A stretch of DNA of 64,000 nucleotides from an uncultured bacterium (GTDB lineage: Bacteria > Verrucomicrobiota > Lentisphaeria > Victivallales > UBA1829), in the NCBI GenBank assembly GCA_902780135.1, contig CACZEK010000012.1, positions 62,001 through 126,000 of the forward strand, read 5' to 3'. Every line of letters starts with the position of its first letter. Position 1 is the stretch's first letter. Below are positions 52,212 through 62,459 of the stretch, one piece after another. The position numbers and the translations under genes were made by a program. The notes under the pieces are model-generated. The model was not told the DNA's origin. It saw only the letters and a program-made list of their open reading frames with translations, and did not search any database.

Positions 52212-53180
52212 TCAGAACAGGTCGGGCTGGGCGTCAGTGGAGGCGTCGGCTTTTTTCCGGGCGGAGGGGGATGCGAGGAAGGATTTCCGCACGCCGGGGG
52301 TGACGGTGTCGCCGGGCTTGAGGCGGCCGAGCAGGAGCGGGGACTTCGGGTCGTGGTACTTGAAGTTCTCGAACGCCTTGCGCGGATTCTGGTTGGCGTA
52401 GCAGTATTTGCAGCCGTTGAGGCAGGTGTCGTACGCGCCGATATCGTGCGTTTCGATGCAGTGGCAGCCCGCGCGGATGCCCTTGTGCTTGAGCTTGCGG
52501 AACTGCACGCCGTTGGCGCGGCCGAGGATGTCGAGCGTCATGCAGCCGGAGGAACGGATGCCGTAGCGCGTGTAATCGCCGTCGGTGCCGCAGGTCTGGA
52601 TCGGGATGCCGAAGCGCGCGGCGGTCGCGCCGAGGGATTCCGCGAGCTCGTTCCGGTAGGCGTCGTTCAGCGGGACCAGCTCCGGCATGTTCGCCTCGAC
52701 TTTTTTGTACATCTCCACGAAACTGAAGATGCAGCGGTCGACGTGCGGGGCGAGGCGTTCCGCCATGCGCGCGAACGTGTCCTTGTGGCGTTCGATGGTA
52801 TACGTCTTCGTGAGCAGGACGGGGTCGTAGCGCCACGCGACGCGCTCCCGCCCGACGATGGAGGCGAGTTCGGCGAGCGTCTCCATGCTTTCCTCGATCG
52901 GCGGCACGCCCGGCTCCACGTCGCGCCCGTACGCCGTGATCGTGTAGAAACAATACGTGCGGAACCGGTCCGTGATCTCGCGGATGCGCGGCAGGATCGG
53001 GCGGTAGTTCTTCGAGCAGAACACCACGCAGTCGACGACCTCGGGGTCCAGCTCCCAGCGCGTGACCTTGTCCGGGAAGAGCGGATTCCGGGACAGGACA
53101 TAGCCCTCCGCGAACCGGTTCAGCAGCCAGTCCGTGAAATACTGGACCGTGTCGGTCCTGCCTCCGGTGTTGATAATCAT
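52212..53180 (-). CDS. DUF1848 family protein
   Basis: A 322-residue protein matching DUF1848: N-terminal MIINTGGRTDTVQYFTDWL, VVFCSKNYRPIL, and a C-terminal Cys-rich block GCHCIETHDIGAYDTC followed by NGCKYCYANQNP. The CKYCYA group resembles the CxxxCxxC of radical SAM enzymes but is at the C-terminus. The family is uncharacterised; metal or Fe-S binding is plausible. It is the last gene before a 200-bp gap holding the long inverted repeat at 53215-53374. Confidence 0.85.
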   Translation of the reverse strand: MIINTGGRTDTVQYFTDWLLNRFAEGYVLSRNPLFPDKVTRWELDPEVVDCVVFCSKNYRPILPRIREITDRFRTYCFYTITAYGRDVEPGVPPIEESMETLAELASIVGRERVAWRYDPVLLTKTYTIERHKDTFARMAERLAPHVDRCIFSFVEMYKKVEANMPELVPLNDAYRNELAESLGATAARFGIPIQTCGTDGDYTRYGIRSSGCMTLDILGRANGVQFRKLKHKGIRAGCHCIETHDIGAYDTCLNGCKYCYANQNPRKAFENFKYHDPKSPLLLGRLKPGDTVTPGVRKSFLASPSARKKADASTDAQPDLF

Positions 53181-53214
53181 ACTCCGCTTCCTCCGAACAT
53201 ACGGGGTTCAGGGG

Positions 53215-53374
53215 CGCCTCTATTCATTCGAGCGGATGGATTTTCAGCAGACAGGCAAACAGGACGATGCAGGAAGATTTGATGGCGGCTACCTGAAAAC
53301 GTAACCGCCGAGAATCTTCCCAGTCGGGATTTGCCCGGATGCGAAAAGCCGCCGCCAACCAATGAATAGAGGTG
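53215..53374. repeat. 160-bp near-continuous imperfect palindrome (MITE-like element or structured RNA)
   Basis: The ends are perfect 12-bp inverted repeats, CCTCTATTCATT (53217-53228) and AATGAATAGAGG (53361-53372), extendable to 14 with one G-T pair. Inside, nested arms continue the pairing: GCGG/CCGC, TTTTC/GAAAA, GCA/TGC, GGCAAA/TTTGCC, GAC/GTC, GGAAGATT/AATCTTCC and GGCGG-TAC/GTA-CCGCC, with a terminal loop CTGAAAAC. The whole folds as one long hairpin with small internal loops. It contains no gene and no T-run. Confidence 0.75.
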
Positions 53375-53382
53375 ACCTCAAA

Positions 53383-54420
53383 TTACTGGTTGTCTTCGAG
53401 CTTCTTGTACTCGGCGTACTTCTTCGCGGCGAGGCGGCTGCCGGTCTCGAAGAGCGAGGCGGCGTTCTCGGGGAAGGTGCGTTCGAGCGCGGCGAAGCGG
53501 ACTTCGCCCTTGAGGAAGGCGCGGTAGTCCTTCGTGGGTGCGGGGGAATCGAGCGTGAAGGGCTTCTCCTTCGACGGGTTGTAGCGGTAGAGGAACCAGT
53601 ATCCGGCGTCGACGGCGGCCTTCATCTCCTGCTGGACGTTGCACATGCCGCACTTCAGGCCGTGGGTCATGCAGGGGGCGTAGGCGATCACGACGGACGG
53701 ACCGGGGAAGGCTTCCGCCTCTTGGAGCGCCTTCATGAGCTGGTTCGGGTCGGCGCCCATCGCGACGGACGCGACGTAGACGTTGCCGTAGGTCATGAAG
53801 ATGCGTCCGAGGTCCTTCTTCGGGCTGCGCTTGCCGGAGCTGGCGAACTGCGCCACCGCGCCGATCTGCGTCGCCTTGGAGGACTGGCCGCCGGTGTTCG
53901 AGTAGACCTCGGTGTCCACGATCAGCGCGTTGATGTTCTCGCCGCTGGCGATCACGTGGTCGAGGCCGCCGAATCCGATGTCGTACGCCCAGCCGTCGCC
54001 GCCGTACATCCAGAACGTCTTCTTGGCGAGCTGGTCGCGGTGCAGGAGGATGCCTTCGGCAAGTTCGGAAACATCACGGTCGGAGGCGAGTTCGGCGCGG
54101 GCGGATTCGAGCGCGTCGCAGAGGGCGTCGGACGCCGTGCGCGAGGCGTCGAAATCGTCGAACGCGTCAAGCCACGCCCGAAGCGCGGATTTGAGGGTTT
54201 CCGGGACCGCCTTTTCGAGCAGGGACTTCACGCGGATGACCTGCATCTCGCGCTGTTTCTTCGAGGAAAGCAGCATGCCGAGCGCGAACTCGGCGTTGTT
54301 CTCAAACAGCGAATTGGTCCATGCCGGGCCGAATCCGCGCTGGTTGACCGTGTACGGGATGCCGGGCATGGGCGAGCCCCACGCCTGCGAACACCCGGTG
54401 GCGTTCGCCCAGTACACGCG
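53383..54420 (-). CDS. Pyruvate:ferredoxin oxidoreductase, C-terminal fragment
   Basis: About 345 residues homologous to the C-terminal part of PFOR, in a different frame from the N-terminal part. It begins at VYWANATGCSQAWG and includes NSLFENNAEFALG, MYGGDGWAYDIGFGGLDHV (TPP and Mg binding), NINALIVDTEVYSNTGGQ, and CMTHGLKCGMCNVQQEMKAA. The first in-frame ATG is at 54369. About 20 residues that normally join the halves, including the CxxC-type Cys pair before the TPP domain, are missing at the junction near 54421. Either the gene is inactivated or the sequence has a local error. Confidence 0.85.
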   Translation of the reverse strand, partial: RVYWANATGCSQAWGSPMPGIPYTVNQRGFGPAWTNSLFENNAEFALGMLLSSKKQREMQVIRVKSLLEKAVPETLKSALRAWLDAFDDFDASRTASDALCDALESARAELASDRDVSELAEGILLHRDQLAKKTFWMYGGDGWAYDIGFGGLDHVIASGENINALIVDTEVYSNTGGQSSKATQIGAVAQFASSGKRSPKKDLGRIFMTYGNVYVASVAMGADPNQLMKALQEAEAFPGPSVVIAYAPCMTHGLKCGMCNVQQEMKAAVDAGYWFLYRYNPSKEKPFTLDSPAPTKDYRAFLKGEVRFAALERTFPENAASLFETGSRLAAKKYAEYKKLEDNQ

Positions 54421-56864
54421 GAGGCGGCGGAGAACTCGAGGAGCGGGCGGCGGAACTGGCTGCCCTTGACCGTATAGGGGTTGAAGACGTCGGACTTGGC
54501 GGGGAGCGACAGCAGGTAGTTCCAGTTCGCGAGGTCGTGGTCGGTCTCGGCGTTCGGGGTCATGACGAGCGCCTTTTCCTTCGCCGGGCAGACGGACGCG
54601 CAGACGCCGCATCCGGTGCAGTCGGCGGCGCTGATCTGGAGCGTGAAGACATAGCCGGGCTTGCCGCCCTTCGCGGGCTCGGTGCGGAGCGGGGCGGGCG
54701 CGGCGGCGGCTTCCGCCTCGGTCAGCAGGTACGGACGGACCACGGCGTGCGGACAGGCGAACGCGCATTTGTTGCACTGGATGCACTTGGCGGAATCCCA
54801 GACGGGCACGTGGATCGCGATGTCGCGTTTTTCGTAGGCGGTCAGGCCCATGTCGATCACGCCGTCCTCGTAGCCCTTGAACGCGCTCACGGGCAGGTCG
54901 TCGCCCTTCTGGGCGTTGATCGGCTCGAGCAGGTTCGTGACGACGGCGGGGAGGCCGGGACGCGCGGCGGGCGCGGGATCGGCGGCGTTCCGCCAGGATT
55001 CCGGCACGGGCGCTTCCACGAGGCTCTTCACGCCCTCGTCGATGGCGGCGAGGTTGCGGTTCACCACGTCGTCGCCCTTGGCGAAATAGGTCTTCTTCGC
55101 GGCTGTCTTCATGAAGGCGACGGCGTCCTCCACGGGGATGACGTTCGCGAGGCGGAAGAAGGCGGCCTGCAGGACCATGTTGATGTGGCTGCCGAGGCCG
55201 AGGCGTTCCGCGATGGCGACGGCGTCGATGAGGTAGAGCTTCGCGTGGCGTTCGGCGAGCGTGCGCTTCACGTGCGCCGGGAGCTTTTCGTCGAGCTCGG
55301 CGGGCGTCCACGGGCAGTTCAGCAGCAGGGTGCCGTTCGGCTTCAGCTCGCCCGCGACGTCGTACTTGGAGATGTACGTGGCGTTGTGGCAGCCGATGAA
55401 GTCGGCGGCCTTCACGTAGTAGGAGGACCGGATCGGGCTGTCGCCGAACCGGAGATGCGACTTGGTCACGCCGAACGACTTCTTGGCGTCGTACTCGAAA
55501 TACGCCTGGGCGTATTTGGAGGTGTGGGCATTGATGATGTTGACCGTATTCTTGTTCGCGCCGACCGTGCCGTCGGAGCCGAGGCCCCAGAACTTGCAGC
55601 AGACGATGTGCTCGTCGTCGGGATAGAGGGGGGCTTCGACCGGGAGCGAACGGTGCGTCACGTCGTCCACGATGCCGATCGTGAAGCCGTTCATCGGCTT
55701 TTCGGCGGCGAGGTTGCGGAAGACGGCTTCGATCTGTGCCGGGTCGGTGTCCTTCGAGGAGAGGCCGTAGCGGCCGCCGTACACGGAGAGCGCGGCGGGA
55801 TGGTTCGCCGCCGCCAGCACGGACCGCACGTCCAGATACAGCGGATCGCCCGCCGCGCCCATTTCCTTGCAGCGGTCGAGCACGGCGATGCGCTTGACCG
55901 AGACGGGCAGCGCGGCGAGGAAGTGTTCGGCGGAGAACGGGCGGTACAGGCGGACCTGGAGGAACCCGGTCTTTCCGCCGCGGGCGTTCAGCCAGTCGAC
56001 GGTCTCGCGGATGGTGCCGGAGACGGAGCCCATGGCGATCACGACGTATTCGGCGTCGGGCGCGCCGTAGTAGTCGAAGAGGCGGTATTGGCGGCCCGTC
56101 ACGGACGCGATCTTGTCCATGCAGGACTGCACGATGCCGGGCAGAGCGTCGTAGAACGGGTTGTTCGCCTCGCGCACCTGGAAGAAGATGTCCGGGTTCT
56201 GCACGGTCGCGCGGAGCATCGGGTGCTCCGGGTTCAGCGCGTGGGCGCGGAACGCCTCGAGCTTCTTCATGTCGACGAGCGGCTTCAGGTCGGCGTAGTC
56301 GATGGGCTCGACCTTGCTGAGTTCGTGCGAGGTGCGGAAACCGTCGAAGAAATGCAGGAACGGGATCAGCCCCTCGATCGCGGCGAGGTGCGCCACGGGC
56401 GCGAGGTCCATCACTTCCTGCGCGTTCGCGCTGGACAGCATCGCGAATCCGGTCTGGCGGCAGTTCATCACGTCCGAATGGTCGCCGAAGATCGACAGCG
56501 CGTGCGTGCCGACCGTGCGGGACGCCACGTGCAGGACGCCGGGGAGGCGTTCGCCGGAGATGCGGTGCATGACCGGGATCATGAGCATGAGGCCCTGGGA
56601 CGAGGTGAAGGACGTGGAGAGCGCGCCCGCCTCGAGCGAGCCGTGGATCGCGCCGATCGCGCCCGCCTCGGACTGCATTTCCACCAGCGTCACGGTCTGG
56701 CCGAACACGTTTTTGCGGCCTTTCGCCGCCCATTCGTCGGTTTTGCCCGCCATCGGGGAGGACGGGGTGATCGGGTAAATGGCGGCGACTTCGGAAAACG
56801 CGTATGCGGCGTAGGCGCACGCCTCGTTGCCGTCCATCGTGACAAACTGTTTCGCGGAACTCAT
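54228..56864 (-). CDS. Pyruvate:ferredoxin oxidoreductase, N-terminal part, frameshifted
   Basis: Residues 1 to ~814 are a normal PFOR: VTMDGNEACAYAAYAFSE and AIYPITPSSPMAGKTDEWA, then STSFTSSQGLMLMIPVMHRI, SDGTVGANKNTVNII, and two [4Fe-4S] motifs, CIQCNKCAFACP and CTGCGVCASVCP. After KGSQFRRPLLEFSAA the frame runs off into unrelated residues to a stop at 54228. The homologous continuation lies in another frame from 54420. PFOR decarboxylates pyruvate to acetyl-CoA and reduces ferredoxin in anaerobes. The loss of about 58 or 61 bases (3n+1) explains both the frame change and the missing residues. Confidence 0.9.
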   Translation of the reverse strand: MSSAKQFVTMDGNEACAYAAYAFSEVAAIYPITPSSPMAGKTDEWAAKGRKNVFGQTVTLVEMQSEAGAIGAIHGSLEAGALSTSFTSSQGLMLMIPVMHRISGERLPGVLHVASRTVGTHALSIFGDHSDVMNCRQTGFAMLSSANAQEVMDLAPVAHLAAIEGLIPFLHFFDGFRTSHELSKVEPIDYADLKPLVDMKKLEAFRAHALNPEHPMLRATVQNPDIFFQVREANNPFYDALPGIVQSCMDKIASVTGRQYRLFDYYGAPDAEYVVIAMGSVSGTIRETVDWLNARGGKTGFLQVRLYRPFSAEHFLAALPVSVKRIAVLDRCKEMGAAGDPLYLDVRSVLAAANHPAALSVYGGRYGLSSKDTDPAQIEAVFRNLAAEKPMNGFTIGIVDDVTHRSLPVEAPLYPDDEHIVCCKFWGLGSDGTVGANKNTVNIINAHTSKYAQAYFEYDAKKSFGVTKSHLRFGDSPIRSSYYVKAADFIGCHNATYISKYDVAGELKPNGTLLLNCPWTPAELDEKLPAHVKRTLAERHAKLYLIDAVAIAERLGLGSHINMVLQAAFFRLANVIPVEDAVAFMKTAAKKTYFAKGDDVVNRNLAAIDEGVKSLVEAPVPESWRNAADPAPAARPGLPAVVTNLLEPINAQKGDDLPVSAFKGYEDGVIDMGLTAYEKRDIAIHVPVWDSAKCIQCNKCAFACPHAVVRPYLLTEAEAAAAPAPLRTEPAKGGKPGYVFTLQISAADCTGCGVCASVCPAKEKALVMTPNAETDHDLANWNYLLSLPAKSDVFNPYTVKGSQFRRPLLEFSAASACTGRTPPGVRRRGARPCPASRTRSTSADSARHGPIRCLRTTPSSRSACCFPRRNSARCRSSA

Positions 56865-56996: not shown

Positions 56997-59489
56997 TCAC
57001 TCGGCGACGATGCCGTCGACCTTCTTGATCTTGAGGCGGTTCACGGCGTCCTCGCGCATCTTGTACTTGAGGATTTTTCCGGCGGCGTTCATGGGGAACT
57101 CCTTCACGAAGTCGACGTAGCGCGGAACCTTGTACTTCGCCATGTGGGAGCGCACGAAGTCCTTCATCTCCTCCTCGGTCATGGTCTCGCCTTCCTTCAG
57201 GATCACGCACGCCACGATCTCCTCGCCGTACTGCTCGTCCGGGATGCCGATCACCTGCACGTCGGAGACTTTCGGGTGCGTGTAGATGAACTCCTCGATC
57301 TCCTTCGGGTAGATGTTCTCGCCGCCTCGGATGATCATGTCCTTCAGGCGGCCGGTGATGCGGTAGTTGCCTTCCGGGGTGCGGAGCGCCAGGTCGCCGG
57401 TGTGGAGCCAGCCGTCCGCGTCGATGGCGGCGGCGGTCTCGAGCGGCATCTTGTAGTAGCCCTTCATGATGTTGTAGCCGCGGGCGAGGAACTCGCCGGG
57501 CACGTTGTCCGGGAGGTCCTTTCCGGTCGCGGGGTCCACGATGCGGCATTCGATCTCCGGCATGGCGCAGCCGACGGTCTCCACGCGGACCTCGAGCGGG
57601 TCGTCGGTGCGGCTCATGGTGCAGCCGGGCGACGCCTCGGTCTGGCCGTACACGATCACGATCTCGGTCATGTTCATCTTGTTCACGACGTCCTGCATGA
57701 CGGACACCGGGCAGGGCGAACCCGCCATGATGCCGGTGCGCATGTAGGAGAAGTTCGTCTTCGGGAAGTCGGGGTGCTCCAGCATGGCGATGAACATGGT
57801 GGGCACGCCGTGGAACGCGGTGATCTTCTCCTGGTTGATGCAGGCGAGCGCGGACTTCGGGGAAAAATAGGGCAGCGGGCAGAGGGTGGTGCCGTGCGTC
57901 ATGGACGCGGTCATGGCGAGCACCATGCCGAAGCAGTGGAACATCGGCACCTGGACCATCATGCGGTCCGCGGTGGAGAGGTCCATGCTGTCGCCGATGC
58001 ACTTGCCGTTGTTCACCACGTTGTAATGGGTCAGCATCACGCCCTTCGGGAATCCGGTGGTGCCGGAGGTGTACTGCATGTTGCACACGTCATGGATGTC
58101 CACGGCGTCGGCGCGGCGGCGGAGCTCCTCCATCGGCACCTTGTGGGCGTATTCGACGGCCTCTTCCCAGGTCAGGCTGCCGGGCTGGCGGAATCCGACC
58201 GAGATGATGTTGCGGAGGAACGGCAGGCGCTTCGCGTGGAGCGGTTCGCCCGTCTTCGTCTGCGCGAGTTCGGGGCAGAGCTCGTTCATGATGCCCGCGT
58301 AGTCGGAATCGCGGTAGCCTTCGATCATCACCAGCGTATGGGTGTCGGACTGGCGCAGCAGGTATTCCGCCTCCTGGATCTTGTACGCGGTGTTCACCGT
58401 GACGAGCGCCGCGCCGATCTTCGTGGTCGCCCAGAACGTGATGTACCACTGCGGCACGTTCGTCGCCCAGATCGCGACTTTCGCGCCGGGCTTCACGCCG
58501 AGGGCGATCAGCGCGCGCGCGAAGGTGTCCACGTCGTCGCGGAACTCGGAGTAGGTGCGCGTGTAGTCGAGCGTGGTGTATTTGAAGGCGTACTGGTCGG
58601 GGAATTCGCGGACCATGGCGTCGAGCACCTGGGAGAACGTCTTTTCGATCAGGATGTCCTTCTTCCAGATGAATTTCCCGGTATGGCGCTTGTTTTCGTA
58701 GAGGGTCGCCTTGGCGCGCGCCAGCTCGAACCGGCTCATGTAGCTCACGAACTGCGCGAAGATCACGTCGGGCGAGCTGATCTCCGCCTCCCACTTCGGA
58801 TCCCATTCGATGGAGATGAACCCGTCGTAGTTCACGGAGCGGAGGGCGTTCATCACGCGGTCGAGCGGGAGCGAGCCTTCGCCGACGATCGCGTGGACCT
58901 CGGCGCTCTCGGAGTCCTTCAGGTGGACGTGTTTGATGTACGCGCCCAGGTTCTTGACCGTGGCTTCGGGCGTTTCGCCGCAGACGCGGTAGGGATAGTG
59001 CAGGTCCCACAGCGCGGCGAGGTTGTCCGTCATGAAGCTCGCGAGCAGATCGCCGAGCTTCAGCGTGTCGGCGTAATACCCGACCGTCTCCACGAGCAGG
59101 ACCACGCGGGACTGTTCGGCGAGCGGCAGGGCGCAGTCGATGAAAGCGCGGGCCGCGACATCGTCCTCGGGCGTGGTTCCGCCGGTTTTCAGGCGGATGT
59201 AGGGCACGTGCAGGCGGCGCGCGGTCTCCAGGCAGCGTTTGAGCTCGTCGAGCGCGGCTTCCGGCTTCGCGGCGATGTCGTTCACGAGGTCGAGGCAGGA
59301 GATGCACAGGTCATGGTTGCGGAGTTTGTGCTGGACGCCCGCGAGGCGTTCCGGCCGGAAATCGTTCCTGAGCTTCGGCGTGTCGACATTGTGGACCTCG
59401 ATCCCGTTGAACCTGTATTCCCGGGCGATCCGGACGAAATCGTCGAAACTGTAGGATTCCCAACGATTGGTCGAGAACGACAGCTTCAT
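56997..59489 (-). CDS. Fusion of a sugar-phosphate-isomerase-like TIM barrel and an acyl-CoA synthetase
   Basis: An 830-residue two-domain protein. Residues 1-~285 form an AP endonuclease/xylose isomerase-type barrel: FNGIEVHNVDTPK, VVLLVETVGYYADTL, LAALWDLHYPY, IKHVHLKDS and FISIEWDPKW, with metal-ligand-type Glu/Asp/His/Glu. Residues ~300-830 form an AMP-forming acyl-CoA ligase: YTSGTTGFPKGVMLTHYN (P-loop), IVYGQTEASPG, DGWLHTGDLALR, GRLKDMIIRGGENIYP, and the A10 Lys in NAAGKILKYK. Joining these two in one chain is unusual. It starts inside the stop of the LeuA-like gene (ATGA) and precedes the PFOR gene by 132 bases. The substrate is unknown. Confidence 0.88.
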   Translation of the reverse strand: MKLSFSTNRWESYSFDDFVRIAREYRFNGIEVHNVDTPKLRNDFRPERLAGVQHKLRNHDLCISCLDLVNDIAAKPEAALDELKRCLETARRLHVPYIRLKTGGTTPEDDVAARAFIDCALPLAEQSRVVLLVETVGYYADTLKLGDLLASFMTDNLAALWDLHYPYRVCGETPEATVKNLGAYIKHVHLKDSESAEVHAIVGEGSLPLDRVMNALRSVNYDGFISIEWDPKWEAEISSPDVIFAQFVSYMSRFELARAKATLYENKRHTGKFIWKKDILIEKTFSQVLDAMVREFPDQYAFKYTTLDYTRTYSEFRDDVDTFARALIALGVKPGAKVAIWATNVPQWYITFWATTKIGAALVTVNTAYKIQEAEYLLRQSDTHTLVMIEGYRDSDYAGIMNELCPELAQTKTGEPLHAKRLPFLRNIISVGFRQPGSLTWEEAVEYAHKVPMEELRRRADAVDIHDVCNMQYTSGTTGFPKGVMLTHYNVVNNGKCIGDSMDLSTADRMMVQVPMFHCFGMVLAMTASMTHGTTLCPLPYFSPKSALACINQEKITAFHGVPTMFIAMLEHPDFPKTNFSYMRTGIMAGSPCPVSVMQDVVNKMNMTEIVIVYGQTEASPGCTMSRTDDPLEVRVETVGCAMPEIECRIVDPATGKDLPDNVPGEFLARGYNIMKGYYKMPLETAAAIDADGWLHTGDLALRTPEGNYRITGRLKDMIIRGGENIYPKEIEEFIYTHPKVSDVQVIGIPDEQYGEEIVACVILKEGETMTEEEMKDFVRSHMAKYKVPRYVDFVKEFPMNAAGKILKYKMREDAVNRLKIKKVDGIVAE

Positions 59490-61160: not shown

Positions 61161-62459
61161 ATGTCCCCGTCCCTTCCCCCGCTTTCCAACTTCGACTCCG
61201 CCCACATCATCGGCTGCTGCGGCGCAGGATGCGCCCCCCTCGCCCGGATCCTCCTCGAAAAAGGCTTCCGCGTCTCCGGGTCCGACCTGCTCGACAACGC
61301 CGCCGCGGCGGCGCTCCGCAGGCACGGCGCGCAGATCGCGCCCGCAGGGCACCGCGCCGGAAACATCCCGGCGGACGACGACAGGCTTCTGGTCATACGC
61401 ACCTCGGCGGCGGGGCCGGAGAACCCGGAAGTCGCGGAGGCGATGCGGCGCGGTTTGCCCGTGCTGAGGCGGGGCGAAGCGCTCGCGATCACGGCGGATT
61501 CGTACAAGAGGCCCGTGGCGGTCAGCGGCTCGCACGGCAAAACGAGCGTGAGCGCGATGCTGGCGTGGCTGCTCCGCGAACTCGGCGCGGATCCCGGATA
61601 CATGATCGGGGGATCCGTCACGGGCTGGGAAAGCGCGGGCGCGGCGGGCGACGGCGACCTGTTCGTCACCGAGGCGGACGAGAGCGACGGCACGCACGCG
61701 CTGCTGCACCCGCACCTCGGGATCGTCACGAACGTGGAGGACGACCATGCGTGGAGCCTCGGCGGATTCGAGGCGCTGGAACGCAATTTCAAGGCGTTCG
61801 CGGCGCAGTCCGAAACCCTGCTGTACTGCGCCTCGGAGGAGACCGACCGCCTGTTCAAAGACCATCCGCACGCGGTCCGGATCGACCTCGCGAACATCCC
61901 CGAAAACTTCCTGCCCGGATTCGGGCATTTCCAGCGGCTGGACGGCGCCATCGCGTTCGAGATCGCCGCGCTGCTCGGATTCGACCTGAACGAGGCGATG
62001 CGCAAGCTCCGGGAGTTCCCCGGGGTCGAACGCCGCCTCTCCGTCCGGTACAACGGCGCGGTCACGGTCATTGAGGACTACGCGCACCATCCCACCGAAC
62101 TCCGCGAAAGCATCCGGTCCCTGCGCGGACTCTACCCCGGACGCCGCCTCGTCGCCATCTTCCAGCCGCACCGCTACGCGCGCCTCGAACGCTATTTCGA
62201 CGAGTTCACCGTGGAGCTGAAAAAGGCGGACCTCGTGTTCGTCACGCCGGTCTTCGCCGCCTGGACGGGAAGCGGGAAACGCTCCTCGGAAGACCTCGCG
62301 GCGGCGGTCGGCGGGACCGCGCTTGAGGGGAGCTGGGACGACATGGGCGCGCAGGCAGGGCTTGAGCTCAAAAAAGGCGACGTCGCGGCGATCATAGGCG
62401 CGGGAGACCTGCCGAAGATCCTGCCCTCGCTGATCGCGGCGGCGAAAGCCGCCATCTGA
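61161..62459 (+). CDS. murC: UDP-N-acetylmuramate--L-alanine ligase
   Basis: A 432-residue Mur ligase. AHIIGCCGAGCAPLARILLE is the N-terminal UDP-binding motif, VAVSGSHGKTSVSAMLAWLL the ATP loop, VTEADESDGTHALL and VTNVEDDHAWSL the metal/ATP sites, and VIEDYAHHPTELRESI with IFQPHRYARLERYF are MurC markers. It adds L-Ala to UDP-MurNAc in peptidoglycan synthesis. The glycine loop GCCGAGCAP is Cys-rich compared with GIGGxGMS in typical MurC. No other mur genes are visible. Confidence 0.92.
   Translation: MSPSLPPLSNFDSAHIIGCCGAGCAPLARILLEKGFRVSGSDLLDNAAAAALRRHGAQIAPAGHRAGNIPADDDRLLVIRTSAAGPENPEVAEAMRRGLPVLRRGEALAITADSYKRPVAVSGSHGKTSVSAMLAWLLRELGADPGYMIGGSVTGWESAGAAGDGDLFVTEADESDGTHALLHPHLGIVTNVEDDHAWSLGGFEALERNFKAFAAQSETLLYCASEETDRLFKDHPHAVRIDLANIPENFLPGFGHFQRLDGAIAFEIAALLGFDLNEAMRKLREFPGVERRLSVRYNGAVTVIEDYAHHPTELRESIRSLRGLYPGRRLVAIFQPHRYARLERYFDEFTVELKKADLVFVTPVFAAWTGSGKRSSEDLAAAVGGTALEGSWDDMGAQAGLELKKGDVAAIIGAGDLPKILPSLIAAAKAAI

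Follow-up and report, generated by a model that had tools for sequence, protein, structure and literature searches.

A 166-bp intergenic hairpin in a genus of rumen Lentisphaeria, very probably a type II MITE with a probable IS5-family partner

The window that we analyzed (64,000 nucleotides, positions 62,001 to 126,000 of contig CACZEK010000012.1, from an uncultured bacterium of the Victivallales) contains a long hairpin between a DUF1848 gene and a PFOR gene. Taking all the evidence together, this hairpin is very probably a type II MITE, a non-autonomous DNA transposon that was mobilized by a DDE insertion sequence (IS) and has no function for its host. At the window site itself, a parasitic repeat without host function is most likely. 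A MITE-like mobile element had been suggested in a preliminary description of this DNA, and the suggestion is borne out by dispersed copies, empty sites, a target-site duplication, and an autonomous IS with matching ends. The features are listed in Table 1.

Alignment of the copies and comparison with the empty sites placed the true limits of the element at 53212 and 53377. The resulting 166-bp unit reads GGG...CCC in the family and GGG...ACC in the window copy. Of the earlier assignment to 53215-53374, the hairpin stands but the boundaries do not, the unit extending 3 bases further on each side. The structural description otherwise held well. The 12-bp inverted repeats, CCTCTATTCATT at 53217-53228 and AATGAATAGAGG at 53361-53372, are perfect; the sequence folded into a single long hairpin, imperfectly paired and closed by an 8-base loop; and the element lies, as described, between the DUF1848 and PFOR genes, both on the negative strand, with no transposase gene and no open reading frame (ORF) except short mechanical ones. 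Both strands fold far more stably than shuffled sequences. The positive strand has a folding energy of -87.4 kcal/mol, as opposed to a shuffled mean of -54.8 kcal/mol (z = -7.8; 0 of 200 shuffles), and the negative strand one of -81.7 kcal/mol (z = -6.3). The mean column identity in an alignment of 40 MITE copies was 86%.

Table 1. Coordinates of the element and its surroundings in the window
Feature	Coordinates	Strand	Remarks
MITE copy	53212..53377	+	Whole 166-bp unit folds as one hairpin; from copy alignment, empty sites, and fold
Left target-site duplication copy, TCAG	53208..53211		Single TCAG at the empty sites of six species
Right target-site duplication copy, TCAA	53378..53381		One change from TCAG
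Left terminal inverted repeat GGGCGCCTCTATTCATTCG	53212..53230	+	Similar to the IS5-family element's right end, GGGAACCTCTATCAATTCG
Right terminal inverted repeat, read inward, GGTCACCTCTATTCATTGG	53359..53377	-	Similar to the IS5-family element's left end, GGGCATCTCTATTAATTGC
Hairpin core	53231..53358	+	Conserved among copies; absent from the autonomous IS
PFOR	53383-56864	-	Stop at 53383
DUF1848 gene	start at 53180	-	

The preliminary description saw no clear target-site duplication. A 4-bp duplication, TCAG/TCAA, is nevertheless present in decayed form, and it was overlooked because the boundary had been set 3 bp too far inward. Among 88 copies, the tetramers immediately outside GGG/CCC were identical in 24 cases versus 3.5 expected, and this boundary ranked first of the 81 offsets tried for a length of 4. 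Copies in one species, G009, mostly have perfect 4-bp duplications. A 4-bp target-site duplication is expected of DDE enzymes and not of transposases of the IS200/IS605 type. Empty sites were found in six species of the same genus (G001, G002, G004, G005, G010, and G011), in which the same DUF1848/PFOR junction has TCAG once and lacks the element; in G004, the left and right flanks overlap in precisely these 4 bp. Thus, the element at the window site was genuinely inserted there. This insertion is common only to its own species and G008, with ~93% identity. Since G008 carries the element at the same place, the simplest reading is that the window copy entered before these two species split.

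Further copies were sought in the full genome and in relatives. The 2.84-Mb genome of origin gave eight BLAST matches, and 11 other species of the genus had 4 to 20 copies per genome among the matches listed. G009 has more than 30 copies once further paired ends are counted, the highest number in the genus, and its copies are the most recent. A thirteenth species, G007, contains diverged or shortened copies with the same ends. The ends were constant across the dispersed copies (GGGYAYCTCT...AGAGRTRCCC), and much shorter forms of 30 to 60 bp, consisting of the ends only, are also present. By BLAST, another 28 genomes, from the family and order, contained no copies except for one weak match outside the genus, in G022, which a profile search did not confirm as a member. 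A pattern scan of genome_contigs found nothing, although species of the genus are included there. The family has so far been found convincingly only in one genus of rumen Lentisphaeria. A search of the open-access literature did not turn up any such element described from Lentisphaerae; the class of element is ordinary, and the family itself looks new.

Several copies occupy recurrent positions. One lies just beyond rpsS, in an identical position in six species (L004:1501-1672, L071, L075, L087, L088, and L115), where it adjoins a terminator-like hairpin. Others immediately precede a ribosome-binding site and start codon, again in more than one species (L083:1499-1663/L089 and L026/L055). In G002 and G005, two opposed copies flank ~1.4 kb of DNA (L017:3-1668 and L034:1545-3106). 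This pair was considered as a transposase carrier and rejected: the interval contains ordinary genes, by eye a membrane methyltransferase-like and a hydrolase-like one, and no transposase.

The genus also contains an autonomous IS of 1,290 bp (L185:684-1973, in G003) with the ends GGGCATCTCTATTAATTG and GGGAACCTCTATCAATTC. Its 339-amino-acid protein has DUF772 (PF05598) and DDE_Tnp_1 (PF01609) domains and belongs to the IS5 family (NCBIfam NF033581, 284.5 bits; cutoff, 140). The terminal inverted repeats begin with GGG, in agreement with the GG start by which IS5 elements are recognized, and a copy in G002 with 95% identity has a 4-bp duplication on its flanks (ATTA, GGG...CCC, ATTA). The ends of the IS and the MITE match over ~18 bases, the right end of the IS resembling the left end of the MITE and its left end the right. 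A profile search of the IS loci found the two alike in their ends at most; it also revealed a separate MITE fragment beside the IS of G008. Because the core of the MITE is absent from the IS and the ends are common to both, the element qualifies as a type II MITE as that class is defined in PMC10969869. Judged by sequence, the IS5-family element is probably the partner of the MITE.

The ends of this IS were exposed through a PF05598 search for DUF772 transposases; searches with PF01609 and PF13701 alone did not reveal them. Full or nearly full copies occur in G003 (where the copy ends at the contig end), G002, and G008. None was found in the fragmented assembly of G009, where the MITE is most recent. 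The genome of origin has only IS relics, the longest being a piece of 398 bp at 80% identity, and gave no match to DUF772 or DDE_Tnp_1. Relatives of the IS with 81 to 85% protein identity and the ends GGGTAYCTCTATTTATTC occur in other Lentisphaeria, and the named relatives in which the partner IS occurs are Lentisphaeria of rumen and gut. The right end of the IS (its last ~50 to 400 bp) also occurs separately, in many cases with no left end, at ~40 places in the genus and at three in the genome of origin (G000:C12:191283-191445, G000:C19:20255-20652, and G000:C1:123726-123778). A second IS5-type element, found in G007 (L178) near GGGTATCTCT sites, was rejected as a partner, as it has no matching duplication.

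In the mechanism that we propose, the DDE transposase of this IS5-family element would have moved the MITE in trans by binding its ends, presumably cutting the target with a 4-bp stagger. The window copy is probably immobile now, because only fragments of the 1,290-bp IS survive in its own genome.

The stems of the hairpin covary strongly between copies. Double-changed cells numbered 123 versus 42 in shuffles, and double-changed pairs numbered 22 versus 13 (0 of 500 shuffles in either case). In 47 independent contrasts, each a pair of extant copies, we counted 61 compensated pairs where 11.8 were expected, of which 20 versus 4.0 fell in the outer stem and 41 versus 7.9 in the core. With a strand-symmetric structure, departures at paired positions comprised 105 G-U and 98 A-C, shared variant types 13 and 14, and changes between same-site copies 16 and 20, respectively; decay after insertion, which is common to all copies, dilutes this test, and a slight RNA effect, confined to few copies, could escape it. 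A fold of the positive strand by RNAalifold had given 282 G-U and 47 A-C cells, an apparent sign of RNA selection that we rejected as an artifact because the fold itself picks G-U on the strand that is folded. Selection on an RNA strand should favor G-U, whereas G-U and A-C were equally frequent. Complementarity maintained at the DNA level is therefore the better explanation.

The arms may accordingly be read as kept complementary by a process acting on DNA, for which the candidates would be selection for an extruded or folded-back form during movement and template-switch correction between the arms. That a DNA-level requirement of movement, or systematic correction of this kind, extends beyond the ends to the whole ~164-bp hairpin is a tentative proposal, which we regard as possible but doubtful. 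If true, the requirement would mean that a DDE transposase handles a folded-back or cruciform substrate; either process would account for the strong covariation without preference for G-U over A-C.

Three observations count against a MITE mobilized by this IS and without host function. The full or nearly full IS copies lie outside G009, the species with the most recent MITE copies, although its assembly is fragmented. The MITE core is not derived from the known IS. Finally, several species retain some old copies in one place, as in the six with a copy beyond rpsS; such retention might reflect local use. The element could thus be a MITE by origin that the host adopted at some sites, including the PFOR/DUF1848 junction, as a transcript-end, mRNA-stabilizing, or leader hairpin. 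The persistence of the window copy in G008 and the same-site copies beyond rpsS and upstream of start codons fit such adoption. However, the changes between same-site copies show no preference for G-U over A-C, and shared descent alone could account for the retention, so we consider adoption unlikely.

A structured noncoding RNA, either 6S-like or a cis-regulatory leader, with the hairpin selected as RNA, was the alternative offered in the preliminary description. The very stable fold of both strands and the real covariation are what such an RNA would show, but the RNA reading is highly improbable: no Rfam family matched at the gathering level, a lenient search gave only a chance match (best E value, 0.35; 16 bits versus 63), G-U is no commoner than A-C, and six sister species lack the element at this site. 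Still less credible is a REP/REPIN-like element that a tyrosine (Y1/RAYT) transposase moves in single-stranded form, with folding as part of the mechanism; compensatory changes are reported for REPINs as well (PMC3116915), but this reading is largely refuted by the 4-bp duplication, where IS200/IS605 elements should have none, and by the DDE IS of the IS5 family with the same ends.

Two observations on the neighboring genes stand apart from the element. At ~54422, PFOR lacks 55 bp that are present in four congeners, and its reading frame is broken; the gene is either genuinely a pseudogene or misassembled. At 56997-59489 of the window, a xylose-isomerase-like TIM barrel and an AMP-binding ligase are fused in one ORF.

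The type II MITE described here is a clean multispecies case in an uncultured lineage, with empty sites, copies of mixed age, and a probable partner in the IS5 family. Its symmetric G-U/A-C pattern offers a simple covariation test of RNA versus DNA for any hairpin repeat. It also cautions against defining a noncoding RNA from nothing more than a very strong fold with significant covariation.

Among known systems, the element is close to the type II MITEs of bacteria reviewed in PMC10969869, such as QMITE2 of Coxiella. Like QMITE2, it is short, noncoding, and intergenic, shares its terminal inverted repeats with an IS, is flanked by a target-site duplication, and would by prediction form a long stem-loop when transcribed. 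It differs in sequence and host and in the length of the duplication (4 bp here and 7 to 9 bp there), and covariation over the whole hairpin has been quantified for the window family. BrickBuilt and other MITEs of Porphyromonas gingivalis, which are linked to IS5-family ISPg elements (PMC4596501), likewise have ends matching IS5-family insertion sequences and long predicted stem-loops, but BrickBuilt has a minisatellite and irregular duplications in place of a single long hairpin and a regular 4-bp duplication. With IS5-family insertion sequences (NF033581), the window element has in common the terminal pattern and the 4-bp duplication seen in the 1,290-bp partner, but it has 166 bp and no transposase. 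ERIC, Correia, and REPIN sequences are also small dispersed palindromic repeats; they occur in other hosts, REPINs are linked to RAYT tyrosine transposases, and the likeness to ERIC and Correia is drawn from description.
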